64,000 nucleotides of DNA from Deroplatys truncata (lineage: Eukaryota > Arthropoda > Insecta > Mantodea > Mantidae), in the NCBI GenBank assembly GCA_030765065.1, contig CM060990.1, forward strand, positions 459,504,321 to 459,568,320, read 5' to 3'. The position numbers and the translations under genes were made by a program. Under the pieces are notes generated by a model, which worked only from the letters and a program-made list of their open reading frames with translations, had not been told where the DNA came from and searched no databases. Below are positions 12,173-55,561 of the stretch, piece by piece; positions within the stretch are counted from its first letter, which is position 1; the number at the start of each line of letters is the position of its first letter.

Positions 12173-13240
12173 TTAGGTTATTTTTCGACAGTCTCCATAT
12201 CGGTTTGTGCACTTGTCGCTTCGTGGGATGAGTTTGAATATTTCCTGCGGGTAAAAATCCTGTCCTTGCGTGTTCAGCCACGTTGTCGCGAAGTGTTTCA
12301 GCTCCTCGCCTGAAGCGAATCGTCGGTCTTCTAGGTGCGCTTTCAAGTGAGGAAAGAGGTGAAAGTCGCTTGGAACGAGGTCCGGGCTGCGCGAAGAGTG
12401 GTCGATGATGTCCAAGCGAAACTGCTTCAACAGCGTGGTCTTCTGGGCTGTATGAGGTCGTGCGTTGTCGTGGAGGAAGATGGCGCCCTCGGTGAGAAGT
12501 CCTGGCCGTTTCCTCCTGATTGCTTCGCGCAATCGTGTCAAGGTCTCGCAGTATTGGTCAGTGGTCACTGTGTGCCCTCCTTCCAAAAGCTCCACGAGTA
12601 TGATACCGGCGCTGTCCCAAAACACTGTGGCCATCACCTTCCTGGCAGATGGCGTCACATTAAACTTCTTTCTCTTTGGAAAGGAGGGGTGTTTCCACAA
12701 CATTAACGACCGCTTACTGCTGGAGTGTAGTGGTGGATCCATGTTTCATCACCCGTGACAATGTGGTGAAGAAAACTGTTCCCTTCCGTGGAGAACCGTT
12801 GTAAAAGTTGCAGACTTGTCCGCATGCGCTTCTCCTTGTGTTGGTTGGACAGATTTCGTGGAACCCATCGGGAACAATCTTTCCGGTACTGCAGAATATC
12901 GTGAACAATGTGACGAACGCTTCCGAACGACATTCCCAATTCTACCGTCATATGCCGTAACGTGATCTCCCTGTTGTCCTGAATCAGCTCATTTACATGT
13001 GCTGGGCTCAAATCTGTTGATGCCGTGCTGGGTCGGTCACTGCCATCCTCGTCGGTGACGTTTTCTCTACCGGCCGCAAACTTTCGACACATTCTGCGAC
13101 ATGCTGACGGGACGTTACAGCCTCTTCATAAACTCTACCAGCTGCCGGTGAATTTCAGCCGCGGTTACATGTTTCGCCTACAGAAATCAAATAACGGAGA
13201 GGATTTCTTCGCGAGACCACTTTTCCAAATAAATCGCCAT
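12173..13240 (-). pseudogene. Mariner transposase pseudogene (DDD)
   Basis: Transposase of the mariner family, which excises and inserts the element at TA. Read on the minus strand, the start lies near 13,240 (MAIYLEKW). Two in-frame stops and a frameshift follow in the N-terminal helix-turn-helix part. A good reading frame runs 13,092-12,703, through the linker to the first catalytic block (HHIVTGDETWIHHY). A frameshift at about 12,703-12,742 moves to the second frame, which ends at 12,173. That frame carries HDNARPHTA (second Asp) and SPDLVPSDFHLFP (third Asp) about 34 residues apart, as in mariner. The C-terminus is intact. The gene cannot encode a full protein but is younger than the 2.9-kb relic. 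Confidence 0.92.
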
Positions 13241-19911: not shown

Positions 19912-20715
19912 GACCTTTTCTAAAAAAATAAATTCATTGGATTCAGGGAGTGCAGACGTGATTTCTGGTGAATTACGACATTGAATTTCTAGGTGGAACA
20001 CAATACTTTTCTACTTACTGTAGCTACGTGGTAATGCTAAAAAATACTTACTTTGGATTCAGGGGGTCTCAAAACATGTATTTTCGGTGAATCTCGTTAT
20101 TCAATTTTTCGGTGGAACACAATACTTTCCCTACTTACTGTAGCTACGAAGTACAGAAAGTAAAAATGCTTACTTTGGATTCAGAGGGTCTCAAAACATG
20201 TATTTCCGGTGTATCTCATTCAATTTTTTGGTGGAATGCAATACTTTCCCTACTTACTGTAGCTACGTAGTAGAGAAGGTAAAAACGCTTACTTTGTTTT
20301 CAGGGAGTCTCAAAATATGTATTTCCGGTGAATCCCTTTATTGAATTTTTGGGTGAAACACAATACTTTGTCTACTTATTGCAGCTACGCAGTAGGAAAA
20401 ATAAAGACGCTTTCTATGGTTTCCGGGGTCTCAAAGGTATATTTCCGGTAAATCTCGTTTTTCAATTTTTCGGTGGAACACAATACTTTCCCTACTTACT
20501 GTAGCTACGTAGTAGAGAAAGTAAAAATGCTTAGTTTGGATTCAGGGGCCTCAAAACATGTATTTCCGGTGAATCTCGTTATTCAATGTTTGTGTGAAAC
20601 ACAATACTTTCTCTATTTACTGTAGCTACGTAGTAGAGAAAGTAAAAAGATTTACTTTGGATTCGGGGGGTCTCAAAACGTGTATTTCCGATGAATCCCG
20701 TTATTCAACATTCTC
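19912..20715 (+). repeat. ~120-bp tandem array (about 7 units)
   Basis: Each unit runs 'tttggattcagggggtctc', 'aaaacatgtatttccggtgaa', 'caatttttcggtggaacaca', 'atactttccctacttactgt', 'agctacgtagtagagaaagt'. Units are diverged but co-linear. One-unit pieces at 1-165 and about 24,480-24,620 show the unit also disperses. Confidence 0.9.
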
Positions 20716-24459: not shown

Positions 24460-24990
24460 ACGAATGTCAATTCAGATCCTCGACTTTTTTACTTTCTCTA
24501 TCACGCACACAGGTAGAGAAGGTATTGCATTCCACCCAAATATTGGATACCAAGATTTCAATGGAAATACATGTTTTGAAGCACCCTGAATCCAAAGAGG
24601 GCATTTTTAGAAAAAGGTCCGAGAGTGAACACCATAACTCAAAAACAAAATGTCGGATAAATACCAAACCTGGAATTTAGGTTAGTATCCTTGAAAGGTG
24701 CGACTCAAAGATTTTCAAGTAAATCCCCCACCCCAAACTACCCTTTACTTGGAACATTTTTAGATTTTTTTATTTTCTAAACCATGATTCTAACGATTTC
24801 GATTAAATTACTATATATTAAAGCTTTTTACATGACAAATAAAATATATATCTTGAATTTTTTGGAAATAACATGTGAACTCCTCTTTATTCGGAAGCAA
24901 TTTTGTATAATTTTTGTAACTGGTAAACGATAAGCGAGAGACGAAAACGCACTACACACAAAACAAAATGTGGATCTCTTTAAAACACAC
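24460..24990 (-). repeat. Dispersed repeat R, reverse copy
   Basis: The minus strand carries one 120-bp array unit (about 24,480-24,620) joined to the R body (24,640-24,990), the same order as at 19.5-20.0 kb but without the (CA)n tract. A matching phrase in + orientation is 'ccccaccccaaactaccctt'. Confidence 0.7.
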
Positions 24991-29474: not shown

Positions 29475-29984
29475 ATGACAGCGTTTTCAGATCAAGAGTA
29501 TTTGAATACGCTGCTTGCGTATGACAAAGCTGAGTGCAACGCGCGTGAAGCCCAACGCTTGTATAGGGATAAGTTTCCTAATAGGATAATTACAAATCCA
29601 GGACCATTTACTGCAGTAGCTCAGGGAGTACGAGAGTCGGGAAGTGTGATTCTGCACCCTGAAAACCGAGGTCCACAGCCCTCGAATGCGGTACTGCAGG
29701 AGGAGGAAACAATTTTGTATCTGATAGAAGAGGATCCAGGTGCTTATTCAAAGAGGCATCTAAGTGAAAATGATTATCCGCCTAGAGTAGCATTCTGCCA
29801 ATGGCTGAAAGAGCAGTGTCTGAGTAATGCTAATGTTTCGTCACAGGTGCTGGTGGCTGATGAAGCGTGTTTCACACGTAATGGTGTTTTGAATTTTCAC
29901 AACAATCATTCGTGGGCTTTTGAAAATCCGCATACTGTGTGACAAGGTCATTTCCAGCACCAGTTTTCGCTTATTTGAACTCGC

Positions 29985-39542: not shown

Positions 39543-39548
39543 CATATA
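39543..39548. repeat. 6-bp target-site duplication, left
   Basis: CATATA directly precedes the AG terminus of the palindromic element. The same six bases directly follow its CT terminus at 55,556-55,561. Confidence 0.75.
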
Positions 39549-39615
39549 AGTAGAAATATAATACCGGTTTGAGCGCACAGAGAGATGCCGAAAAACTGAT
39601 AAGCTTCTTTGATCT

Positions 39616-39765
39616 ATGCCGACAAGTCCGCCCCCTCCCTTTGTGTGCTCACATGCCGCCAGGTCTCGTGTCGTTAGGCCCCGCCCCCTCTCGCTTTGTG
39701 TGCTCACCTAATGCCGGCAGTATCTGTGCTAACAGGTTCTACCCCCTCTCCCATGCGTTCTACTG
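39616..39765 (+). repeat. Subterminal G+C-rich repeats (3 units), left arm
   Basis: Three diverged units begin atgcc at 39,616, 39,653 and 39,711 and share 'ccccctc' and 'tttgtgtgctcac'. They lie 70-215 bp inside the element's end, where transposase or integrase binding repeats would be expected. Confidence 0.65.
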
Positions 39766-40274
39766 TGGCGTCATGACTTGATGGAATTGTTTTCTCGAGT
39801 CCTGCCGCCCCTCGGCAAATTAATTAGGTAATGTTCGTCAAACATTTTTTTTATGACTACTAAGCCCTGCACATTGCATCCTCGAGCAATTAAGTTTTTT
39901 GATTAATGAATTGTTGACTGGAGCTTGAGTATAAGTAGTCTGCTCACGGGAACAGTCTGTCATGTAATGAAACACTGCAGCCTTCTTGTATCTGGGGAAA
40001 TCGCTTGTCCATTAGCTGAACATGTTAGACGCTTTCAACACATTAATAGGCTTTTAAGTTTACATTCTGGATCTGTTTACATACATTAGCGATCAACGAC
40101 ATACTTCCGTCTGGAGGTAACGGTGACCCACATTAGCTACCCGTTAGACGCTTTCACCACATTAGCGAACATTGTCAGTAATTGTTTTCCTAAGTGCTCT
40201 GCCCAACACTCAACACTTTAGATTTTAGCGATGGAAATGATATAAAAAGCAGCAGCTTCTCCAACGAGTTCCAA

Positions 40275-42162
40275 GTTGACCAGGATGGCCGGGTTCGAAT
40301 TACAAATTCAGCTTCTAATAACTCAGAGACTAATTACGATAAAGACATCAAATAAAGTTTATTACATTAATGTCATTAGATAGTTTCTTGTGAATGTATA
40401 TTTGGGTACATGGTGTCCAGGGTTCGAATACCGATAAAATGTAATTTAATTATAAATTTAATAACTCCTAAACTAATTAAGATAAAGACGCCAAATAAAC
40501 TTTATTGTCTTTATGTTATTAGGTAGTATCTTGTGGAGGTGTAATTAGATACCTGACGTTCTGGGTTCGAGCCTAATGTTTAAATCGTCATTATCTCAGA
40601 AACTAAGAGAGGTAGAGGAGTTGACCAAAGCATGATTGATAGCTCCTATGATGGGTAATTAATACGGTATATAATTTTCAATCAGTTGTCCTTACTTCGA
40701 ATCCCGATCTTTCAATCACTTACTTATTTTTTCTCTATACTCTAGAATATGTCACTTAGATTGATGCTGTAACTGCATACACAACCTTTAAACATATCAA
40801 ACTAATATTGTAAATAATTTTGTTTCTGGTGTCCAGGGTTCGAATACCGATAAAATGTAATTTAATTATAAATTTAATAACTTCTAAACTAATTAAGATA
40901 AAGACGCCAAATAAACTTTATTGTCTTTATATTATTAGGTACTATCTTGTGGATGTGTAATTAGATACCTGACGTTCTGGGTTCGATCCTAATTTTAAAT
41001 CGTCATTATCTCAGAAACTAAGAGAGGTAGACGAGTGAACCAAAGCATGATTGATAGCTCCTATAAGGGGTAATTAATACTGTATATAATTTTCAATCAG
41101 TTGTCCTTACTTCGAATCCCGATCTTTCAATCACATACTTATTTTTCTCTATACTCTAGAATATATCACTTAGATTGATGCTGTAACTGTATACAGCACC
41201 TTTAAACATATCAAACTAATATTGTAAATAATTTTGTTTCTGGTGTCCAGGGTTCGAATACCGATAAAATGTAGTTTAATTATAAATTTAATAACTTCTA
41301 AACTAATTAAGATAAAGACGCCAAATAAACTTTATTGCCTTTATGTTATTAGGTATTATCTTGTGGATGTGTAATTAGATACCTGACGTTCTGGGTTCGA
41401 GCCTAATTTTAAATCGTCATTATCTCAGAAACTAAGAGAGGTAGACGAGTGAACCAAAGCATGATTGATAGCTCCTATGAGGGGTAATTAATACTGTATA
41501 TAATTTTCAATCAGTTGTCCTTACTTCGAATCCCGATCTTTCAATCACTTACTTATTTTTCTCTATACTCTAGAATATATCACTTAGATTGATGCTGTAA
41601 CTGCATACAGCACCTTTAAACATATCAAACTAATATTGTAAATAATTTTGTTTCTGGTGTCCAGGGTTCGAATACCGATAAAATGTAATTTAATTATAAA
41701 TTTAATAACTCCTAAACTAATTAAGATAAAGACGCCAAATAAACTTTATTGCGTTTATGTTACTAGGTAGTATCTTGTGGATGTGTAATTAGATACCTGA
41801 CGTTCTGGGTTCGAGCCTAATGTTTAAATCGTCATTATCTCAGAAACTAAGAGAGGTAGAGGAATTGACCAAAGCATGATTGATAGCTCCTATGAGGGGC
41901 AATTAATACTGTATATAATTTTCAATCAGCTGTCCTTACTTCGAATCCCGATCTTTCAATCACTTACTTATTTTTCTCTATACTCTAGAATATATCACTT
42001 AGATTGATGCTGTAAATGCATACAGCACCCTTAAACATATCAAACTAATATTGTAAATAATATTGGTTCTGGTGTCCAGGGTTCGAATACCGATAAAATG
42101 TAATTTAATTATAAATTTAATAACTCCTAAACTAATTAAGATAAAGACACCAAATAAACTTT
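40275..42162 (+). repeat. 415-bp higher-order satellite, left arm
   Basis: Units start 'ggtgtccagggttcgaatac' at 40,412, 40,829, 41,242, 41,656 and 42,071 (spacing 413-417). Each unit divides into three diverged ~138-bp submonomers, each opening with a ttcga(a) motif ('ggttcgaataccg', 'gggttcgagcc', 'acttcgaatcccg') and a following 'aataactc..aaactaa'-type stretch. One extra submonomer precedes the array at 40,275. No ORF. Confidence 0.9.
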
Positions 42163-42790
42163 TATAGGGGAAAGGATGCTCTCCTGAAACATTAGGTCTC
42201 TAGATAGAAGTATTTATAGGGGAGAGATAGGGAATACCAGGGCTGATGCTAGGCTAGTCAGATGCTAAAGGAGGGAGGGATATGCTTTATACGAGAGAGA
42301 TAGGGAACACAAGGAAAGATGCTATACTAAACAGGGCTTGAAGGGTAGAATATGAGCGATATAGCAAACCGAGGAGAGGTATTAGGATAGGAGTTTTGAA
42401 TGATGGAGTAGGCGTTTATATGCGAGAGATAGGGAATACGAGGGTCGATGCTAGGCTAGACGGTGTTGAATGAGGGAATGCATCTTATATGAGAGAGGTA
42501 GGGGAATATGAGGAGAAGTGCTAGGCTAGTCGGGAAGGTCTGAATGAGAGAGTATACGTCTATATGGGAAAATATAGGGAAAACGAAGGTAGGTGCTAGG
42601 TTGAGAGAGTCTTCAAGGAGGAAAATGCATTTATATGAGAGCCGTAGGGTATACGAGGAGAGGTGCTAGTCTAGACATGGTTTGAGGATTAGAGTATACG
42701 TTTATATGGGAGAAATATGGAAAACAGGAGAGATACAAGGATAGACAGAGATTGAAGGAGGAGGAATGTAGGTTTATACTGTAATATAGA
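42163..42790 (+). repeat. Degenerate ~60-bp tandem array, left arm
   Basis: About ten imperfect units of the form 'tttatatgggagagataggg', 'aatacgaggagaggtgctag', 'gctagac' and 'gaaggaggga'. It starts with the boundary motif 'aaaggatgctctcctgaaac' at 42,171. Confidence 0.8.
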
Positions 42791-42987
42791 GAGTAATTCG
42801 ATTATAAAACTTTTCTCATCCAGCCTTACAACACTTTTTATATACTTAATTTCTAAACCTTACAAACTTTATATTTGTTAAACAGCAGTGCGCGAGACGG
42901 AGAGGGACAAACAGTATATCGGTTTACAGTGAAGTATACGTCCTAACCTATTCCCACCTTGTTTGTTCTGGATCTTCTCATTGTCTG

Positions 42988-43200
42988 TCATCTAACGTAA
43001 CCACGTAACAAGACGTGACACAGGAAATCATACATATGGCACATTAAAAAAAATAAAGGTATATATAATGAAACATAAACAAGTAGACAGAGGGTCGTCG
43101 ATACATAGAAAACCAGGAGTTGTATGTACTGAGACCATAGATTAGTATAGGCAAACAACAAAGAAGTGAATTTATAGTGTAAATAGCCTAATATTTTCAA
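42988..43200 (-). CDS. Hydrophobic 70-aa ORF, left arm (doubtful)
   Basis: The 70-codon ORF has long hydrophobic stretches rich in Leu, Tyr and Phe, compatible with one or two membrane helices. There is no homology I can name. Its presence in both arms is explained by arm identity and is not evidence of selection. It may be chance. Confidence 0.2.
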   Translation of the reverse strand: MKILGYLHYKFTSLLFAYTNLWSQYIQLLVFYVSTTLCLLVYVSLYIPLFFLMCHMYDFLCHVLLRGYVR

Positions 43201-43315
43201 ATATTATTATAGTCTAAAAGTATATAACTTAATTATGTATCGAGTATTGAGAAATAAACGTTATTCATTATTCACTAATCTCAGATCACTGCAATTGTAT
43301 TGAATCAATTCACAA

Positions 43316-43603
43316 TTGCTAATGCCATACTTTCATTTGTCTCTGATACATAAACAAATTGCAAAATGGAGAAGGACGAAAGTAATAAAAAAACTCAGGC
43401 AGCAAATTTTAAGAAAGAAGAGAAAGATATATGACCGACATTGTTTTAGAACACAAATTAGTGTTGAAAATAAAATGACTGATAGCTCTGCTAAGCGTAA
43501 GGAAGAGACATGGAAATAAATTGCAAATGAATACAATTCTAGGTTAGAAAAAGAAGATAAACAACATTCATGTAAACCAATTTTTAAAAATCAGTTTAAC
43601 TGA
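43316..43603 (+). pseudogene. Zeste-type Myb/SANT-like domain fragment, left arm
   Basis: A 67-codon ORF (43,316-43,519) ends in KMTDSSAKRKEETWK. After a TAA the same frame goes on with IANEYNSRLEKEDKQ to 43,603. In insect zeste/apontic-type Myb/SANT-like domains the order is a basic helix, an acidic helix ending in NKxTD, then K..xW..I..EFNS, and this matches the second half. The N-terminal half of the domain appears in the other two frames around 43,395-43,475, so frameshifts have occurred. It is a decayed DNA-binding domain, convergent to the zinc-finger ORF pair. Confidence 0.55.
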
Positions 43604-43708
43604 ATACATGTAAAAAAACATATCACTTTACAAAACGTAATGCAGACAACATTTATTTTTATAAACATTATACTATTACATTCCTTTACAAAAAACCATA
43701 CATATTTC

Positions 43709-43918
43709 CTAAAGGCAAAGGTGATAGTCTAGACATTCTAAACACTCAGTTATATAATCATATACATCACACAGAAAGAGACCATCATTATCAGTAAAAA
43801 AACTAAACATCTCAACAATGTCTGAATGATGTATTTTATAAGTACAAGTCTTTTGATATTTCAAAGTTCCTGTTAACCATGGCAGTAATTGATTAACACA
43901 ATTTCTCGATCCTGTCAT
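43709..43918 (-). CDS. 69-aa ORF overlapping the zinc-finger ORF, left arm
   Basis: Identical to the right-arm ORF 51,187-51,396. It starts at the ATG of an ATGA overlap with the stop of the 155-aa ORF. Cys-rich C-terminus (CLECLDYHLCL). No recognised domain. Confidence 0.45.
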   Translation of the reverse strand: MTGSRNCVNQLLPWLTGTLKYQKTCTYKIHHSDIVEMFSFFTDNDGLFLCDVYDYITECLECLDYHLCL

Positions 43919-44382
43919 GCTATAACTTTAGATGCTTTCAGCTTACTTATAATTTCCTCAATCTCTTGTGTGTGTCTATTATTACCAGCATCCCTCGACG
44001 CAATTAGTAACCTCAATATATTTACTAGTCTATTCGGATTTTCAAGCGTTGATATCACTGAATCATCATCATATGAAGATTTCATATTCTCGCAACTTCC
44101 GATGTATCCAGATTTTTCACCAACAGTAGTCTCCAGTGAAGGACAGAGGCTTGATACGGTATAACATTCCCCTCTATACATCTTCGGATCTTCAAGTGCA
44201 GGTGAGAGAGTCGATTCAGTATAACATGTTGCTCTATGAAACTTAAATCTTGACAAAGAACGATTCTTAAAAATCCGCCCGCATACACAGCATCTAATAA
44301 CGCGTTTTCCTCCATGTGTAATGTATGAAAAATCGAGTTTCTCATTCGTCAGTTGCACAGATTTTCTCGGGCAGTAGCTCAT
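43915..44382 (-). CDS. 155-aa C2HC zinc-finger ORF, left arm
   Basis: Identical in translation to the right-arm copy at 50,723-51,190; see that entry for the domain layout. Transcription would run outward from the central minisatellite toward the element's left end. A pyrimidine tract with 'cttttag' (minus strand) lies just before the ATG, so an upstream non-coding exon is possible. Confidence 0.6.
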   Translation of the reverse strand: MSYCPRKSVQLTNEKLDFSYITHGGKRVIRCCVCGRIFKNRSLSRFKFHRATCYTESTLSPALEDPKMYRGECYTVSSLCPSLETTVGEKSGYIGSCENMKSSYDDDSVISTLENPNRLVNILRLLIASRDAGNNRHTQEIEEIISKLKASKVIA

Positions 44383-44519
44383 GCTAAAACTAAAAGAAAT
44401 TAAATGAATACGTGAATGCTAACGCTCGAAGGAATTAAAAGCGAATGAATGAATTCATAACACGCACCTATGTATATATCCAGGATGAGGACGACGGAGG
44501 GAATTGCGATCAATGCATA

Positions 44520-44800
44520 GCAGGGAGAAAGGATACTCTCTTGAAACATTAGTCATCTAGACAACTATTGTTCACGGAGCCTGTAGACGTCAGGTTGAAT
44601 GGGACAGACCTCAGGTTCAAATCTTTAAGGGCACGGACCCAGCCTTTTGCCTGTCATGTATACTAAACCATCCTAACAGCGTAACATTACGTTACAACGA
44701 CACGTAACCAGAACATGGCGAGTGCGAGCATGGAAAAAAGGATGCTCTCTGGGAACATTACTGGAAAAGGATGCTCTCTGGAAACACTAGTCATCCACAC
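44520..44800 (+). repeat. Boundary motif cluster, left arm
   Basis: Three copies of 'aaaggatgctctct.gaaaca', followed in two of them by 'ctagtcatc', begin near 44,528, 44,738 and 44,766. A fourth opens the ~60-bp array at 42,171. The copies sit at transitions between modules of the arm. Confidence 0.75.
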
Positions 44801-44933
44801 AACGGGTTGTCCCTAACATTTCCAGATTTCGGGTCGTTCAACATCGTGACGCGCCCCTGTCATCTACATTTCGACGAAATTTTACCTCCTGAATTAAAGT
44901 TTGGTGATCTGTATAGACCTGTACAACATGCAT

Positions 44934-47007
44934 TACGCTATGTAACAGACTCATCACGTTATGTAACAACACGATCACGCTAGGTAACAACATGTTCACG
45001 CTATGTAACAACATGATCACGCTATGTAACAACATGATCACGCTATGTAACAACATGATCACGCCATGTAACAACATGATCACGCTATGTAACAACATGA
45101 TCACGCTATGTAACAACATGATCACGCTATGTAACAACATGACCACGCTATGTAACAAAACGATCAAGCTATGTAACGACTGATCACGCTATGTAACAAC
45201 ATGATCATGCTATGTAACAACCTGAGCACGCTATGTAACAACATGATCACGCTATGTAACAAACTGAGTACGCTATGTAACAACATGATCACGCCATGTA
45301 ACAACTGATCACGCTATGTAACAACATGCTCAAGCTATGTAACAACTGATCACGCTATGTAACAACATGATCACGCTATGTAACAACCTGAGCACGCTAT
45401 GTAACAATCTGATCACGTTATGTAACAACTGATCACGCTATGTAACAACATGATCACGCTATGTAACAACATGATCTCGCTATGTAACAACATGTTCACG
45501 CTATGTAACAACATGACCACGCTATGTAACAAAACGACCACGCTATGTAACAACACGATCACGCTATGTAACAACACGATCACGCAATGTAACAACTGAT
45601 CACGCTATGTAACAACCTGATCAAGCTATGTAACAACTGATCACGCTATGTAACAACATGATCACGCTATGTAACAACCTGAGCACGCTATGTAACAACA
45701 TGATCACGCTATGTAACAACCTGAGTATGCTATGTAACAACATGATCACTCCATGTAACAACTGATCACGCTATGTAACAACATGCTCAAGCTATGTAAC
45801 AACTGATCACGCTATGTAACAACACGATCACGCTATGTAACAACCTGATCAAGCTATGTAACAACATGATCACGCTATGTAACAACCTGAGTACGCTATG
45901 TAACAACATGATCACGCCATGTAACAACTGATCACGCTATGTAACAACATGCTCAAGCTATGTAACAACATGTTCACGCTATGTAACAACATGATCACGC
46001 TATGTAACAACATGTTCACGCTATGTAACAACATGATCACGCTATGTAACAACATGACCACACTATGTAACAACATGATCACGCTATGTAACAAAACGAT
46101 CAAGCTATGTAACAACACGATCACGCTATGTAACAACCTGATCAAGCTATGTAACAACTGATCACGCTATGTAACAACCTGAGCACGCTATGTAACAACC
46201 TGATCACGCTATGTAACAACTGATCACGCTATGTAACAACTGATCACGCTATGTAACAACATGCTCAAGCTATGTAACAACATGATCACGCTATGTAACA
46301 ACATGTTCACGCTATGTAACAACATGATCACGCTATGTAACAACATGTTCACGCTATGTAACAACATGATCACGCTATGTAACAAAACGATCAAGCTATG
46401 TAACAACACGATCACGCTATGTAACAACCTGATCAAGCTATGTAACAACTGATCACGCTATGTAACAACCTGAGCACGCTATGTAACAACCTGATCACGC
46501 TATGTAACAACTGATCACGCTATGTAACAACATGATCAAGCTATGTAACAACATGATCACACTATGTAACAACATGTTCACGCTATGTAACAACATGTTC
46601 ACGCTATGTAACAACATGTTCACGCTATGTAACAACATGATCACGCTATGTAACAACATGACCACACTATGTAACAACATGATCATGCTATGTAACAAAA
46701 CGATCAAGCTATGTAACAACATGATCACGCTATGTAACAAAACGATCAAGCTATGTAACAACCTGAGCACGCTATGTAACAACATGTTCACGCTATGTAA
46801 CAACATGATCACGTTATGTAACAACATGATCACGCTATGTAACAACATGATCACTCTATGTAACAAAACGATCAAGCTATGTAACAACCTGAGCACGCTA
46901 TGTAACAACATGTTCACGCTATGTAACAACATGAACACGCTATGTAACAATACGATCACGCTATGTAACAATCTGATTACGCTATGTAACAACTGATCAC
47001 GCTATGT
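44934..47007 (+). repeat. 20-21-bp minisatellite, left array (~100 units)
   Basis: Tandem units of 'tgtaacaacatgatcacgcta', with variants (ctgagcac, atgttcac, aacgatcaag) and frequent one-base-shorter units. Because 21 is divisible by 3, both strands show long repetitive ORFs (LLHSVIM and NNMITLC heptads), which are not genes. Confidence 0.97.
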
Positions 47008-47206
47008 AAATGGGACCCTAATTGTAGGTTCCCATTTCAAAAAATAAATTGACCCAAAATGACCCTCATAACGGCCTCCAAACGAAATACGACTAGCAGC
47101 ATTTACTTTCGCCATAATATCAATCAAGTTTATTAAAGACATTCCTTTCTACAACGCTTAGTTTTGGATATATTGTATAGCATCAACTTAACTGGTCCAC
47201 CCTATT
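47008..47206. other. Unique centre of the palindrome with a hairpin
   Basis: The only non-repeated stretch between the two inverted arrays. It opens with an 11-bp stem (47,008-47,018 with 47,027-47,037; aaatgggaccc against ggttcccattt, one mismatch) and an 8-base loop. The remainder is AT-rich with no ORF. Confidence 0.8.
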
Positions 47207-50171
47207 TACATAGCGTGATCATGTTGGTACATAGCGTGATCATGTTACATATCGTGATTAGGTTGTTACATAGCGTGATCATGTTGTTACATAGCATGCT
47301 CAGGTTGTTACATAGAGAGTTCATGTTGTTACCTAGCGTGATCATGTTGTTACATAGCGTGCTCAGGTTGTTACATAGCTTGATCGTATTGTTACATAGC
47401 GTGTTCATGTTGTTACATAGCGTGTCCATGTTGTTACATAGCGTGATCGTGTTGTTACATAGCGTGATCGTGTTGTTACATAGCGTGAACATGTTGTTAC
47501 ATAGCGTGATCATGTTGTTACATAGCGTGCTCAGGTTGTTACATAGCGTGATCATGTTGTTACATAGCGTGATCAGTTGTTACATAGCGTGAGCATGTTG
47601 TTACATAGCGTGATCAGGTTGTTACATAGCGTGATCATGATGTTACATAGCGTGCTCAGGTTGTTACATAGCGTGATCATGTTGTTACATAGCGTGATCC
47701 GTTGTTACATAGTATTCAGATTGTTACATAGCGTGATCGTATTGTTACATAGCGTGTTCATGTTGTTACATAGCGTGATCATGTTACATAGCGTGCTCAG
47801 GTTGTTACATGGCGTGATCATGTTGTTACATAGCGTGATCAGCTGTTACATAGCGTAATCAGGTTGTTACATAGCGTGATCAGGTTGTTACATAGCATGA
47901 TCGTATTGTTACATAGCGTGCTCAGGTTGTTACATAGCGTGCTCAGGTTGTTACATAGCGTGATCAGTTGTTACATAGCGTGATCGTTTTGTTACATAGC
48001 GTGGTCATGTTGTTACATAGCGTGCTCAGGTTGTTACATAGCGTGATCAGTTGTTACATAGCGTGATCGTTTTGTTACATAGCGTAGTCATGTTGTTACA
48101 TAACGTGCTCAGGTTGTTACATAGCGTGATCATGTTGTTACATAGCGTGATCAGTTGTTACATAGCGTAATCAGATTGTTACATAGCGTGATCGTATTGT
48201 TACATAGCGTGTTCATGTTGTTACATAGCGTGAACATGTTGTTACATAGCGTGCTCAGGTTGTTACATAGCTTGATCGTTTTGTTACATAGAGTGATCAT
48301 GTTGTTACATAGCGTGATCATGTTGTTACATAACGTGATCATGTTGTTACATAGCGTGAACATGTTGTTACATAGCGTGCTCAGGTTGTTACATAGCTTG
48401 ATCGTTTTGTTACATAGCGTGATCATGTTGTTACATAGCTTGATCGTTTTGTTACATAGCATGATCATGTTGTTACATAGTGTGGTCATGTTGTTACATA
48501 GCGTGATCATGTTGTTACATAGCGTGAACATGTTGTTACATAGCGTGAACATGTTGTTACATAGCGTGAACATGTTGTTACATAGTGTGATCATGTTGTT
48601 ACATAGCTTGATCATGTTGTTACATAGCGTGATCAGCTGTTACATAGCGTGATCAGGTTGTTACATAGCGTGCTCAGGTTGTTACATAGCGTGATCAGTT
48701 GTTACATAGCTTGATCAGGTTGTTACATAGCGTGATCGTGTTGTTACATAGCTTGATCGTTTTGTTACATAGCGTGATCATGTTGTTACATAGCGTGAAC
48801 ATGTTGTTACATAGCGTGATCATGTTGTTACATAGCGTGAACATGTTGTTACATAGCGTGATCATGTTGTTACATAGCTTGAGCATGTTGTTACATAGCG
48901 TGATCAGTTGTTACATAGCGTGATCAGTTGTTACATAGCGTGATCAGGTTGTTACATAGCGTGCTCAGGTTGTTACATAGCGTGATCAGTTGTTACATAG
49001 CTTGATCAGGTTGTTACATAGCGTGATCGTGTTGTTACATAGCTTGATCGTTTTGTTACATAGCGTGATCATGTTGTTACATAGTGTGGTCATGTTGTTA
49101 CATAGCGTGATCATGTTGTTACATAGCGTGAACATGTTGTTACATAGCGTGATCATGTTGTTACATAGCGTGAACATGTTGTTACATAGCTTGAGCATGT
49201 TGTTACATAGCGTGATCAGTTGTTACATGGCGTGATCATGTTGTTACATAGCGTACTCAGGTTGTTACATAGCGTGATCATGTTGTTACATAGCTTGATC
49301 AGGTTGTTACATAGCGTGATCGTGTTGTTACATAGCGTGATCAGTTGTTACATAGCTTGAGCATGTTGTTACATAGCGTGATCAGTTGTTACATGGAGTG
49401 ATCATGTTGTTACATAGCATACTCAGGTTGTTACATAGCGTGATCATGTTGTTACATAGCGTGCTCAGGTTGTTACATAGCGTGATCATGTTGTTACATA
49501 GCGTGATCAGTTGTTACATAGCTTGATCAGGTTGTTACATAGCGTGATCAGTTGTTACATTGCGTGATCGTGTTGTTACATAGCGTGATCGTGTTGTTAC
49601 ATAGCGTGGTCGTTTTGTTACATAGCGTGGTCATGTTGTTACATAGCGTGAACATGTTGTTACATAGCGTGATCATGTTGTTACATAGCGTGATCATGTT
49701 GTTACATAGCGTGATCAGTTGTTACATAACGTGATCAGATTGTTACATAGCGTGCTCAGGTTGTTACATAGCGTGATCATGTTGTTACATAGCGTGATCA
49801 GTTGTTACATAGCTTGAGCATGTTGTTACATAGCGTGATCAGTTGTTACATGGCGTGATCATGTTGTTACATAGCGTGCTCAGGTTGTTACATAGCATGA
49901 TCATGTTGTTACATAGCGTGATCAGTTGTTACATAGCTTGATCGTTTTGTTACATAGCGTGGTCATGTTGTTACATAGCGTGATCATGTTGTTACATAGC
50001 GTGATCATGTTGTTACATAGCGTGATCATGTTGTTACATGGCGTGATCATGTTGTTACATAGCGTGATCATGTTGTTACATAGCGTGATCATGTTGTTAC
50101 ATAGCGTGAACATGTTGTTACCTAGCGTGATCGTGTTGTTACATAACGTGATGAGTCTGTTACATAGCGTA
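47207..50171 (-). repeat. 20-21-bp minisatellite, right array (~143 units)
   Basis: The same units as the left array, in opposite orientation. From 48,140 outward it matches the left array variant for variant, with one 42-bp (two-unit) length difference. The innermost ~930 bp (47,207-48,140) have no partner on the left. Confidence 0.97.
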
Positions 50172-50299
50172 ATGCATGTTGTACAGGTCTATACAGATCA
50201 CCAAACTTTAATTCAGGAGGTAAAATTTCGTCGAAATGTAGATGACAGGGGCGCGTCACGATGTTGAACGACCCGAAATCTGGAAATGTTAGGGACAAC

Positions 50300-50585
50300 C
50301 CGTTGTGTGGATGACTAGTGTTTCCAGAGAGCATCCTTTTCCAGTAATGTTCCCAGAGAGCATCCTTTTTTCCATGCTCGCACTCGCCATGTTCTGGTTA
50401 CGTGTCGTTGTAACGTAATGTTACGCTGTTAGGATGGTTTAGTATACATGACAGGCAAAAGGCTGGGTCCGTGCCCTTAAAGATTTGAACCTGAGGTCTG
50501 TCCCATTCAACCTGACGTCTACAGGCTCCGTGAACAATAGTTGTCTAGATGACTAATGTTTCAAGAGAGTATCCTTTCTCCCTGC
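50300..50585 (-). repeat. Boundary motif cluster, right arm
   Basis: Mirror copy of 44,520-44,800; the motif reads 'agagagcatccttt' on the + strand. Confidence 0.75.
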
Positions 50586-50722
50586 TATGCATTGATCGCA
50601 ATTCCCTCCGTCGTCCTCATCCTGGATATATACATAGGTGCGTGTTATGAATTCATTCATTCGCTTTTAATTCCTTCGAGCGTTAGCATTCACGTATTCA
50701 TTTAATTTCTTTTAGTTTTAGC

Positions 50723-51190
50723 ATGAGCTACTGCCCGAGAAAATCTGTGCAACTGACGAATGAGAAACTCGATTTTTCATACATTACACATGGAGGAAAA
50801 CGCGTTATTAGATGCTGTGTATGCGGGCGGATTTTTAAGAATCGTTCTTTGTCAAGATTTAAGTTTCATAGAGCAACATGTTATACTGAATCGACTCTCT
50901 CACCTGCACTTGAAGATCCGAAGATGTATAGAGGGGAATGTTATACCGTATCAAGCCTCTGTCCTTCACTGGAGACTACTGTTGGTGAAAAATCTGGATA
51001 CATCGGAAGTTGCGAGAATATGAAATCTTCATATGATGATGATTCAGTGATATCAACGCTTGAAAATCCGAATAGACTAGTAAATATATTGAGGTTACTA
51101 ATTGCGTCGAGGGATGCTGGTAATAATAGACACACACAAGAGATTGAGGAAATTATAAGTAAGCTGAAAGCATCTAAAGTTATAGCATGA
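50723..51190 (+). CDS. 155-aa C2HC zinc-finger ORF, right arm
   Basis: Residues 31-53 carry C31-x2-C34, H49 and C53 (CVCGRIF ... FHRATC), a C2HC zinc finger of the classical or BED-like kind, suggesting nucleic-acid binding. The middle is rich in Ser, Glu and Tyr, and the last ~40 residues look like an amphipathic helix (VNILRLLIAS ... EIEEIISKLKASK). I do not recognise the family. A TATA-like 'gatatatacatag' lies ~90 bp upstream and 'atttcttttag' just before the ATG could be a 3' splice site. The stop overlaps the next ORF's start (ATGA). An 87-codon ORF in the +1 frame (50,760-51,023) lies wholly inside. Function is unknown; a transposition or regulatory protein of the element is possible. 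Confidence 0.6.
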   Translation: MSYCPRKSVQLTNEKLDFSYITHGGKRVIRCCVCGRIFKNRSLSRFKFHRATCYTESTLSPALEDPKMYRGECYTVSSLCPSLETTVGEKSGYIGSCENMKSSYDDDSVISTLENPNRLVNILRLLIASRDAGNNRHTQEIEEIISKLKASKVIA

Positions 51191-51396
51191 CAGGATCGAG
51201 AAATTGTGTTAATCAATTACTGCCATGGTTAACAGGAACTTTGAAATATCAAAAGACTTGTACTTATAAAATACATCATTCAGACATTGTTGAGATGTTT
51301 AGTTTTTTTACTGATAATGATGGTCTCTTTCTGTGTGATGTATATGATTATATAACTGAGTGTTTAGAATGTCTAGACTATCACCTTTGCCTTTAG
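51187..51396 (+). CDS. 69-aa ORF, ATGA-overlapping, right arm
   Basis: It starts inside the stop codon of the zinc-finger ORF (shared ATGA) and ends 50 bp before an AATAAA signal at 51,448. The sequence includes YKIHHSDIVEMFSFF and a Cys-rich end. No known domain. It could be translated by re-initiation, by splicing, or be the former C-terminus of the upstream protein after a frameshift. Confidence 0.45.
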   Translation: MTGSRNCVNQLLPWLTGTLKYQKTCTYKIHHSDIVEMFSFFTDNDGLFLCDVYDYITECLECLDYHLCL

Positions 51397-51501
51397 GAAA
51401 TATGTATGGTTTTTTGTAAAGGAATGTAATAGTATAATGTTTATAAAAATAAATGTTGTCTGCATTACGTTTTGTAAAGTGATATGTTTTTTTACATGTA
51501 T

Positions 51502-51789
51502 TCAGTTAAACTGATTTTTAAAAATTGGTTTACATGAATGTTGTTTATCTTCTTTTTCTAACCTAGAATTGTATTCATTTGCAATTTATTTCCATGTCTC
51601 TTCCTTACGCTTAGCAGAGCTATCAGTCATTTTATTTTCAACACTAATTTGTGTTCTAAAACAATGTCGGTCATATATCTTTCTCTTCTTTCTTAAAATT
51701 TGCTGCCTGAGTTTTTTTATTACTTTCGTCCTTCTCCATTTTGCAATTTGTTTATGTATCAGAGACAAATGAAAGTATGGCATTAGCAA
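51502..51789 (-). pseudogene. Zeste-type Myb/SANT-like domain fragment, right arm
   Basis: Mirror copy of 43,316-43,603, with the same internal stop and frameshifts, so the damage predates the duplication or has been spread by gene conversion. It is convergent with the zinc-finger ORF pair. Confidence 0.55.
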
Positions 51790-51904
51790 TTGTGAATTGA
51801 TTCAATACAATTGCAGTGATCTGAGATTAGTGAATAATGAATAACGTTTATTTCTCAATACTCGATACATAATTAAGTTATATACTTTTAGACTATAATA
51901 ATAT

Positions 51905-52117
51905 TTGAAAATATTAGGCTATTTACACTATAAATTCACTTCTTTGTTGTTTGCCTATACTAATCTATGGTCTCAGTACATACAACTCCTGGTTTTCTAT
52001 GTATCGACGACCCTCTGTCTACTTGTTTATGTTTCATTATATATACCTTTATTTTTTTTAATGTGCCATATGTATGATTTCCTGTGTCACGTCTTGTTAC
52101 GTGGTTACGTTAGATGA
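51905..52117 (+). CDS. Hydrophobic 70-aa ORF, right arm (doubtful)
   Basis: Mirror copy of 42,988-43,200. It has hydrophobic segments and no recognised family; it may be chance. Confidence 0.2.
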   Translation: MKILGYLHYKFTSLLFAYTNLWSQYIQLLVFYVSTTLCLLVYVSLYIPLFFLMCHMYDFLCHVLLRGYVR

Positions 52118-52313
52118 CAGACAATGAGAAGATCCAGAACAAACAAGGTGGGAATAGGTTAGGACGTATACTTCACTGTAAACCGATATACTGTTTGTCC
52201 CTCTCCGTCTCGCGCACTGCTGTTTAACAAATATAAAGTTTGTAAGGTTTAGAAATTAAGTATATAAAAAGTGTTGTAAGGCTGGATGAGAAAAGTTTTA
52301 TAATCGAATTACT

Positions 52314-52941
52314 CTCTATATTACAGTATAAACCTACATTCCTCCTCCTTCAATCTCTGTCTATCCTTGTATCTCTCCTGTTTTCCATATTTCTCCCATA
52401 TAAACGTATACTCTAATCCTCAAACCATGTCTAGACTAGCACCTCTCCTCGTATACCCTACGGCTCTCATATAAATGCATTTTCCTCCTTGAAGACTCTC
52501 TCAACCTAGCACCTACCTTCGTTTTCCCTATATTTTCCCATATAGACGTATACTCTCTCATTCAGACCTTCCCGACTAGCCTAGCACTTCTCCTCATATT
52601 CCCCTACCTCTCTCATATAAGATGCATTCCCTCATTCAACACCGTCTAGCCTAGCATCGACCCTCGTATTCCCTATCTCTCGCATATAAACGCCTACTCC
52701 ATCATTCAAAACTCCTATCCTAATACCTCTCCTCGGTTTGCTATATCGCTCATATTCTACCCTTCAAGCCCTGTTTAGTATAGCATCTTTCCTTGTGTTC
52801 CCTATCTCTCTCGTATAAAGCATATCCCTCCCTCCTTTAGCATCTGACTAGCCTAGCATCAGCCCTGGTATTCCCTATCTCTCCCCTATAAATACTTCTA
52901 TCTAGAGACCTAATGTTTCAGGAGAGCATCCTTTCCCCTAT
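52314..52941 (-). repeat. Degenerate ~60-bp tandem array, right arm
   Basis: Mirror copy of 42,163-42,790. Confidence 0.8.
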
Positions 52942-54829
52942 AAAAGTTTATTTGGTGTCTTTATCTTAATTAGTTTAGGAGTTATTAAATTTATAATTAA
53001 ATTACATTTTATCGGTATTCGAACCCTGGACACCAGAACCAATATTATTTACAATATTAGTTTGATATGTTTAAGGGTGCTGTATGCATTTACAGCATCA
53101 ATCTAAGTGATATATTCTAGAGTATAGAGAAAAATAAGTAAGTGATTGAAAGATCGGGATTCGAAGTAAGGACAGCTGATTGAAAATTATATACAGTATT
53201 AATTGCCCCTCATAGGAGCTATCAATCATGCTTTGGTCAATTCCTCTACCTCTCTTAGTTTCTGAGATAATGACGATTTAAACATTAGGCTCGAACCCAG
53301 AACGTCAGGTATCTAATTACACATCCACAAGATACTACCTAGTAACATAAACGCAATAAAGTTTATTTGGCGTCTTTATCTTAATTAGTTTAGGAGTTAT
53401 TAAATTTATAATTAAATTACATTTTATCGGTATTCGAACCCTGGACACCAGAAACAAAATTATTTACAATATTAGTTTGATATGTTTAAAGGTGCTGTAT
53501 GCAGTTACAGCATCAATCTAAGTGATATATTCTAGAGTATAGAGAAAAATAAGTAAGTGATTGAAAGATCGGGATTCGAAGTAAGGACAACTGATTGAAA
53601 ATTATATACAGTATTAATTACCCCTCATAGGAGCTATCAATCATGCTTTGGTTCACTCGTCTACCTCTCTTAGTTTCTGAGATAATGACGATTTAAAATT
53701 AGGCTCGAACCCAGAACGTCAGGTATCTAATTACACATCCACAAGATAATACCTAATAACATAAAGGCAATAAAGTTTATTTGGCGTCTTTATCTTAATT
53801 AGTTTAGAAGTTATTAAATTTATAATTAAACTACATTTTATCGGTATTCGAACCCTGGACACCAGAAACAAAATTATTTACAATATTAGTTTGATATGTT
53901 TAAAGGTGCTGTATACAGTTACAGCATCAATCTAAGTGATATATTCTAGAGTATAGAGAAAAATAAGTATGTGATTGAAAGATCGGGATTCGAAGTAAGG
54001 ACAACTGATTGAAAATTATATACAGTATTAATTACCCCTTATAGGAGCTATCAATCATGCTTTGGTTCACTCGTCTACCTCTCTTAGTTTCTGAGATAAT
54101 GACGATTTAAAATTAGGATCGAACCCAGAACGTCAGGTATCTAATTACACATCCACAAGATAGTACCTAATAATATAAAGACAATAAGGTTTATTTGGCG
54201 TCTTTATCTTAATTAGTTTAGAAGTTATTAAATTTATAATTAAATTACATTTTATCGGTATTCGAACCCTGGACACCAGAAACAAAATTATTTACAATAT
54301 TAGTTTGATATGTTTAAAGGTTGTGTATGCAGTTACAGCATCAATCTAAGTGACATATTCTAGAGTATAGAGAAAAAATAAGTAAGTGATTGAAAGATCG
54401 GGATTCGAAGTAAGGACAACTGATTGAAAATTATATACCGTATTAATTACCCATCATAGGAGCTATCAATCATGCTTTGGTCAACTCCTCTACCTCTCTT
54501 AGTTTCTGAGATAATGGCGATTTAAACATTAGGCTCGAACCCAGAACGTCAGGTATCTAATTACACCTCCACAAGATACTACCTAATAACATAAAGACAA
54601 TAAAGTTTATTTGGCGTCTTTATCTTAATTAGTTTAGGAGTTATTAAATTTATAATTAAATTACATTTTATCGGTATTCGAACCCTGGACACCATGTACC
54701 CAAATATACATTCACAAGAAACTATCTAATGACATTAATGTAATAAACTTTATTTGATGTCTTTATCGTAATTAGTCTCTGAGTTATTAGAAGCTGAATT
54801 TGTAATTCGAACCCGGCCATCCTGGTCAA
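52942..54829 (-). repeat. 415-bp higher-order satellite, right arm
   Basis: Mirror copy of 40,275-42,162 with the same number of units and a few private substitutions (for example near 54,189 and 54,514). Confidence 0.9.
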
Positions 54830-55338
54830 CTTGGAACTCGTTGGAGAAGCTGCTGCTTTTTATATCATTTCCATCGCTAAAATCTAAAGTGTTGAGTGTT
54901 GGGCAGAGCACTTAGGAAAACAATTACTGACAATGTTCGCTAATGTGGTGAAAGCGTCTAACGGGTAGCTAATGTGGGTCACCGTTACCTCCAGACGGAA
55001 GTATGTCGTTGATCGCTAATGTATGTAAACAGATCCAGAATGTAAACTTAAAAGCCTATTAATGTGTTGAAAGCGTCTAACATGTTCAGCTAATGGACAA
55101 GCGATTTCCCCAGATACAAGAAGGCTGCAGTGTTTCATTACATGACAGACTGTTCCCGTGAGCAGACTACTTATACTCAAGCTCCAGTCAACAATTCATT
55201 AATCAAAAAACTTAATTGCTCGAGGATGCAATGTGCAGGGCTTAGTAGTCATAAAAAAATGTTTGACGAACATTACCTAATTAATTTGCCGAGGGGCGGC
55301 AGGACTCGAGAAAACAATTCCATCAAGTCATGACGCCA

Positions 55339-55488
55339 CAGTAGAACGCATGGGAGAGGGGGTAGAACCTGTTAGCACAGATACTGCCGGCATTAGGTGA
55401 GCACACAAAGCGAGAGGGGGCGGGGCCTAACGACACGAGACCTGGCGGCATGTGAGCACACAAAGGGAGGGGGCGGACTTGTCGGCAT
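55339..55488 (-). repeat. Subterminal G+C-rich repeats, right arm
   Basis: Mirror copy of 39,616-39,765. Confidence 0.65.
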
Positions 55489-55555
55489 AGATCAAAGAAG
55501 CTTATCAGTTTTTCGGCATCTCTCTGTGCGCTCAAACCGGTATTATATCTCTACT

Positions 55556-55561
55556 CATATA
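55556..55561. repeat. 6-bp target-site duplication, right
   Basis: CATATA directly after the CT terminus, identical to 39,543-39,548. Confidence 0.75.

Follow-up and report, generated by a model that had tools for sequence, protein, structure and literature searches.

A high-copy family of giant palindromic elements with Polinton-like ends in the genome of the mantis Deroplatys truncata

Near-perfect palindromes of 16-18 kb are normally expected to be unstable, and the presence of one in an insect chromosome raises the question of what such a structure is, how it came to be inserted, and how its arms stay alike. The palindrome in question lies within a window of 64,000 nucleotides of Deroplatys truncata (assembly GCA_030765065.1, CM060990.1, positions 459,504,321-459,568,320), and coordinates below are given within this window unless a contig is named. 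It occupies 39549-55555 (16,007 bp), begins with AGTAG, ends with CTACT, and is bordered by a duplicated CATATA (39543-39548 on the left and 55556-55561 on the right). The left arm (39549-47009, plus strand) and its mirror on the right (48138-55555, minus strand) align over about 7.4 kb with six substitutions, one 1-bp indel and one 42-bp indel; a seventh mismatch in the arm alignment falls in the flank and is left out of the element count. The original prediction for this locus, a near-perfect palindrome of 16 kb with AG...CT ends and a 6-bp target-site duplication (TSD), is borne out in each of these particulars, except that its span of 39543-55561 takes in both CATATA copies as well as the element proper. 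The evidence set out below suggests, with a probability of roughly 0.6, that the palindrome is one member of a non-autonomous, high-copy mobile family that uses the machinery of resident Polintons and whose arms are re-copied from one another by snap-back synthesis.

Nearly all of the element is inverted repeat. From the outside inward each arm comprises about 860 bp without listed repeats, a 414-bp tandem repeat in 4.2 copies (40411-42162 on the left and 52943-54694 on the right), a degenerate tandem repeat of about 145 bp (42397-42725, mirrored at 52380-52710), about 2 kb carrying an outward-reading open reading frame (ORF) of 155 amino acids (aa; 43915-44382 on the minus strand, with an identical mirror copy at 50723-51190 on the plus strand), and finally a 21-bp minisatellite (about 100 units at 44923-47009 and about 143 at 47206-50182). 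The centre consists of a 30-bp hairpin (47008-47037) and one of two half-spacers, side A (47038-47205, minus strand). It is not fully symmetrical: the right arm has about 0.9 kb of extra minisatellite and the sole half-spacer, and the left arm lacks both side B and the inner minisatellite. Outside the minisatellite no frame is longer than that of 155 aa, which is the one compared with Pfam. Among the frames of the window copy, limited to this one and those of the minisatellite, none would fit polymerase B (PolB), integrase, protease, ATPase or capsid, with the proviso that spliced genes would escape such a search. The original description of an element that is almost entirely inverted repeat and has no Polinton core gene therefore holds as far as long frames go, and needs amendment in that each arm does carry a 155-aa frame with relatives elsewhere.

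The window copy is one member of a family. Its left 1 kb, used as a query against the 4.29-Gb host assembly (G000; 818 contigs, referred to below as C1, C2 and so on), found 40 scored places of about 1 kb and 35 short array matches. The 40 places make up 16 plus/minus pairs, with spans of about 8-19 kb, and 8 unpaired places; for at least two of the latter a partner does appear among the places listed for the second of two subterminal motifs. All 16 pairs form the sample used here, 11 read at full length (the window copy included) and 5 at both ends. Every one of the 16 has AGTAG/CTACT at its two ends and an exact 6-bp duplication, and all of the duplications are different; at the right end of C15:68705380 the motif is doubled, and the anchor was shifted 6 bp inward by hand. 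The 11 fully read copies are 8.0-18.1 kb long and sit at different loci, some of whose flanks have dispersed repeats in common. For C9:45717400, joining the flanks and keeping a single TSD copy gives a sequence that aligns without a break at the junction to a related repeat at another place (score 201, versus 193 if both TSD copies are kept), in an alignment of modest identity with gaps at other points. Further copies with the same kind of ends and TSDs, and an empty-site homologue compatible with a 6-bp duplication, are thus both found. A chance or misread palindrome was rejected on the arm alignment and the exact TSDs of all 16 copies. A fold-back read chimera, or another assembly or sequencing artefact, is scarcely credible as an explanation, for while such long-read artefacts are described in one report (PMC12870357), hundreds of hairpin tips and paired ends occur genome-wide, and the copies have sharp ends and exact TSDs (16/16) and flanks that are unlike one another (11 copies).

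The size of the family can be gauged from its conserved parts. The central hairpin has 309 + 256 = 565 matches in the genome at one mismatch or fewer, versus none for a reversed control; this is only a rough copy count, because two of the 11 fully read copies have no hairpin and in a third it takes a variant form. The first subterminal motif has 209 + 211 matches (two mismatches or fewer) and the second 630 + 612 (one mismatch or fewer), with none for either control. Plus/minus end pairs, drawn from the first 100 places listed for each motif, number 40 for the first and 45 for the second. The exact hairpin tip is enclosed by 22 of the 45 second-type pairs, at 0.44-0.61 of the span, and a PolB place (from a listing of at least 118) by one of them; a listed PolB place lies inside 9 of the 40 first-type pairs. 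At least the hairpins at C2:36313705, C3:153660962, C3:172252579 and C4:96802698 fall inside first-type pairs other than those with PolB. Pairs of the first type also include 12 (of 40) that span 20.2-20.55 kb.

What kind of mobile element this is can be approached through its ends. Vertebrate Mavericks have 6-bp TSDs and ends of the form (AGT)2 or (AG)3, according to PMC8097293. The palindromes agree in the length of the TSD and in having AG...CT ends (16/16 copies for both), the AGTAG form being not exactly either of the vertebrate ones. They also have terminal sequence in common with a 20.6-kb element of the same genome that begins at C2:55398875 (pieces L051-L054). The right end of that element is identical to palindrome C3:153651540 over the first 100 alignment columns and differs from C9:45717400 in a single one; for the window copy, identity to it is 94% and 90% in the two halves of this stretch, and most other palindromes are lower. 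Further in, every palindrome matches the same end at 62-64% in columns 100-150, 80-86% in columns 150-200 and about 45% in columns 200-250. The left terminal 200 bp of the window copy (39549-39748, plus strand) are 82.7% identical to the left end of the C2 element and the right terminal 200 bp (55356-55555, minus strand) 82.2%, the outermost 100 bp or so being variable, and no match extends beyond about 210 bp.

The C2:55398875 element is flanked by TGCAAT on both sides, has inverted repeats that are 98.9% identical over 555 bp or more, and is not palindromic in the pieces compared. Its frames comprise the C-terminal part of a PolB, the end of a putative integrase, an Adeno_PX frame (5.8e-8) and a protease-like frame whose PDB hits, to S273R (0.046) and adenain (0.54), are weak; ends, TSD and frames taken together, it is in our judgement a Polinton. 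At E ≤ 1e-5 the PolB piece has 6213 relatives; among the 120 listed, several have PF03175 or a DNA polymerase name. Many of the best relatives bear insect names, which, like the mariner and DUF4817 frames of the window, would agree with an arthropod host. In two other elements, a frame downstream of the PolB is 37% identical to the putative integrase end over 151 aa; the end itself has no family or PDB hit, and integrase is our reading of it. A PF03175 profile search of the assembly returned 152 matches from 76 scored candidates, often in open frames longer than 1,250 aa. Polintons seem to have been recently active in this host, because the PolB piece occurs in at least 118 places at 98-100% identity. 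Genome-wide, Polinton polymerase genes with long open frames are very numerous, with this one lineage alone in at least 118 places. Two further Polinton ends (L055 and L058) are variants of the same end; their PolB pieces are nearly identical and their outermost 60 bp or so differ, so that ends vary among Polintons too. The edge of one PolB element, at C3:71461108, is not an AG end.

With regard to its ends, the family is a well-supported candidate for a non-autonomous user of Polintons, and the proposal of a giant foldback, perhaps a non-autonomous derivative of Polintons, is supported where it was open to testing. 'Derivative' holds for the ends only, because at the DNA level the interior is unlike the Polinton stretches read. 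Foldback features are present as well, namely long inverted repeats with inner tandem repeats and no transposase. Foldbacks of the FB/Galileo type have TSDs longer than 6 bp, unlike the 6 bp seen here in 16/16 copies. The foldback Tetris combines long inverted repeats, inner tandem repeats and the lack of a transposase with a TSD of 8-10 bp, as given in PMC4079207. This resemblance of long arms with inner tandem repeats to Tetris and other foldbacks would favour a foldback moved by an unrelated cut-and-paste transposase (Mutator-like or P-like, for example) whose ends resemble those of Polintons by chance, an explanation made very unlikely by the 6-bp TSDs of all 16 copies, as opposed to the 8-10 bp given for Tetris (PMC4079207), and by the identity over 100 bp of one palindrome to a Polinton end.

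The second part of the question concerns the two arms. In the outermost 480 bp, mean divergence between the two arms of a copy is 0.10%, versus 3.5% between copies (n = 16). The nearest relative of an arm is its own partner in 31 of 32 cases, the exception being the left arm of C9:45717400, by one column. None of 10,000 random re-pairings brought the arms as close as the real pairing, and a tree of the arms placed 15 of the 16 pairs together and left the remaining pair unresolved. Six arm segments free of the 414-bp and 21-bp arrays differ by 0.05-0.13% within copies and 0.33-2.3% between them (9-11 copies). The contrast is sharpest at the outermost bases: in columns 1-50 copies differ from one another by 18%, versus one of 533 sites (plus two gap columns) within copies, and in columns 51-100 by 7.3%, versus none of 535 sites; beyond column 100 copies differ by 0.5-2%. 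The first 62 columns are identical in both arms of 13 of the 16 copies, versus 3 of 120 pairs of different copies. Because the outermost columns diverge between copies and not within them, the ends look as though they had been swapped, with the two ends of a copy changing in step. The order of minisatellite units is mostly more alike within copies (0.62-0.98, n = 9) than between them (mean 0.59, maximum 0.93), and in C8:143216380 the outer 7 kb of the arms show no substitutions at all. The half-spacers beside the tip are different. In the 7 copies in which they can be aligned, 87 of 1134 sites (7.7%) differ between the two sides, compared with 4.9% over all between-copy pairs; by eye, the same two versions, A and B, are seen again in either orientation, and the sites at which they differ are within about 100 bp of the tip.

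The arms of Y-chromosome palindromes are kept alike by gene conversion, and conversion between close inverted repeats is well known. The main rival explanation has the palindromes moved by the Polinton integrase and their arms kept alike by such conversion within the chromosome, which agrees with the likeness of the arms in all 16 copies. Conversion in place should fade near non-homologous flanks, though, and the identity observed extends to the very ends (the first 62 columns without a difference in 13 of 16 copies), the outer 852 bp (0.085%) are as alike as most inner segments, and variant ends are present on both arms together, all of which makes this account doubtful.

The identity down to the last base, the joint switching of ends and the untouched centre are best accounted for if a protein-primed polymerase regenerates the arms by snap-back copying. 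Since the ends of the element are Polinton ends, both the integrase and the polymerase of Polintons may serve it: the integrase would insert it, giving rise to the 6-bp duplication, and the protein-primed polymerase B would copy it. Because the element is a palindrome over nearly its whole length, a single strand, once displaced, would fold back on itself at the central hairpin to give a stem of about 8 kb; if a strand had been cut short in one arm, copying of the opposite arm to the very end would complete it. Each round would make the arms copies of one another, terminal bases included, and an end acquired from another element would spread to both ends at once, leaving un-homogenised only the stretch next to the hairpin. 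Half-spacers that differ near the fold are what snap-back copying predicts, as it would rewrite everything outside the break point and not the stretch beside the fold. In the way it works the element thus appears to be a Polinton passenger of the non-autonomous kind; it does not count as an autonomous Polinton, as no core genes were seen, and does not have the TSD length of FB-type foldbacks.

In a further explanation the family is an internal-deletion relic: a Polinton with unusually long inverted repeats that has lost its coding middle and is moved in trans with no special copying. Polinton ends and 6-bp TSDs agree with such an origin. It is nonetheless unlikely, since the interior is unlike the Polinton stretches read (about half of one copy), the arms are homogenised copy by copy, and hundreds of copies retain the central hairpin, whose two sides recur in the 7 copies compared, a pattern that speaks for a preserved function.

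Several observations weigh against a Polinton passenger with snap-back arms. Gene conversion in place is able to keep arms alike. In three of the 16 copies the two arms are not identical in their first 62 columns, and whole arms with their arrays differ by 0.19-2.23% (9 copies), mostly in the minisatellite for the highest copies; divergence is greatest in C12:30388190 (165/7400) and C16:593485190 (102/7513), and in the former the minisatellite order agrees between arms at 0.62, hardly above the between-copy mean of 0.59. Similarity of the interior to Polintons is nil over the stretches read, which cover about 10.2 of the 20.6 kb of C2:55398875 and parts of others. The PolB piece has no polymerase hit in Pfam-A, and its name rests on labelled relatives. 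An exact first-type end lies within 22 kb at only 9 of the 47 listed PolB places on C1-C6, and when ends of further PolB copies were predicted, 2 of 6 fetched stretches showed one; one of the four missed ends is absent because it sits at C2:79075875. Many paired elements are unclassified, because 22 of the 45 second-type pairs have neither an exact tip nor a listed PolB place and 31 of the 40 first-type pairs have no listed PolB place. Older copies are under-sampled, because the copies were chosen as the best matches to the left end of the window copy.

The 155-aa frame is open in 18 of the 20 arm copies found, both arms of C3:153651540 being frame-shifted. By eye, the N-terminal part of the protein has CxxC and HxxxC spacing. 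Its last 41 residues or so form a conserved C-terminal motif that is shared, at 46-78%, with a broader group of proteins, the majority of which carry the label PF26634; over 92%, a 156-aa relative shows 38% identity. Naming the protein itself after a Pfam family was rejected, as nothing scored above the cut-off and PF26634 is a precomputed label of the homologues only. The best PDB sequence match is a zinc-finger chain (E 0.00065, no stretch passing alone), and the AlphaFold model is poor (mean pLDDT 61.9). Searches of viral contigs with the protein gave no lead, and tblastn with it and its relatives found no match in the Polinton stretches read. A manual count over the copies, with the frame-shifted C3 copy left out, gives 11 replacing and 4 silent substitutions, and so no sign of purifying selection on the ORF within this genome. 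As a guess, the protein might bind DNA near the ends or the hairpin.

Compared with known systems, the palindromes resemble Polintons/Mavericks in their TSDs, their AG...CT ends and the end sequence of a Polinton of the same genome, and differ in being nearly all inverted repeat, with no frame fit for a core gene and an interior unlike the Polinton stretches read. They are like FB, Galileo and Tetris (the last of which also has no transposase; PMC4079207) in having very long inverted repeats with inner tandem repeats, and differ in their 6-bp TSDs, Polinton ends, copy-by-copy homogenisation of arms and conserved central hairpin. What is new is that arms are nearly identical copy by copy, that variant ends occur on both arms together, and that only the stretch beside the hairpin differs. 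Among the matches listed, the open-licence PMC literature contained no such element, which is not proof of absence.

Two viral systems also invite comparison. The SYREC adenovirus is a symmetric defective genome, a head-to-head palindrome with viral ends that a helper polymerase copies; snap-back genomes of this type share that architecture with the present element, which differs in being chromosomal, in having hundreds of copies and in having an ORF of its own. Satellite viruses and virophage-like parasites depend on helper replication, a dependence the palindromes would have in common with them if the proposed use of Polinton enzymes is right; the palindromic architecture is the difference here. 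As a tentative extension, the family could be a palindromic satellite replicon, a parasite of Polintons that would multiply outside the chromosome as hairpins of about 8 kb copied by the Polinton polymerase, swap ends with any Polinton that serves it, keep an asymmetrical hairpin as its origin of fold-back, have a small zinc-finger-like gene of its own, and perhaps travel in Polinton particles.

Polinton replication and transposition have been deduced mainly from sequence, and a palindromic passenger in hundreds of copies that lacks the Polinton genes would be a natural record of that replication. The copy-by-copy identity of the arms bears on how arms arise, and the outermost bases suggest exchange of ends between passengers and Polintons. 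The family also suggests that near-perfect palindromes of 16-18 kb are able to spread and persist in chromosomes, and the divergence of arm from arm may serve as an insertion clock in the manner of long terminal repeats.

The 414-bp unit (40411-42162) contains two GGGTTCGA motifs and one CTTCGAATCC that by eye resemble tRNA B boxes; ARAGORN called no tRNA there. An origin from an RNA gene or tRNA was rejected, the whole window having no ARAGORN hit and no Rfam match above the gathering score. Elsewhere in the window, a 122-bp tandem array of a dispersed repeat is present at 19961-20708, 24486-24609 and 1-134, and sequence that by eye is like it adjoins two other palindrome copies. The window also contains a mariner-type Transposase_1 frame (12173-12742, minus strand; PF01359, 3.7e-18) and a DUF4817 helix-turn-helix frame (29475-29942, plus strand; 3.1e-6).

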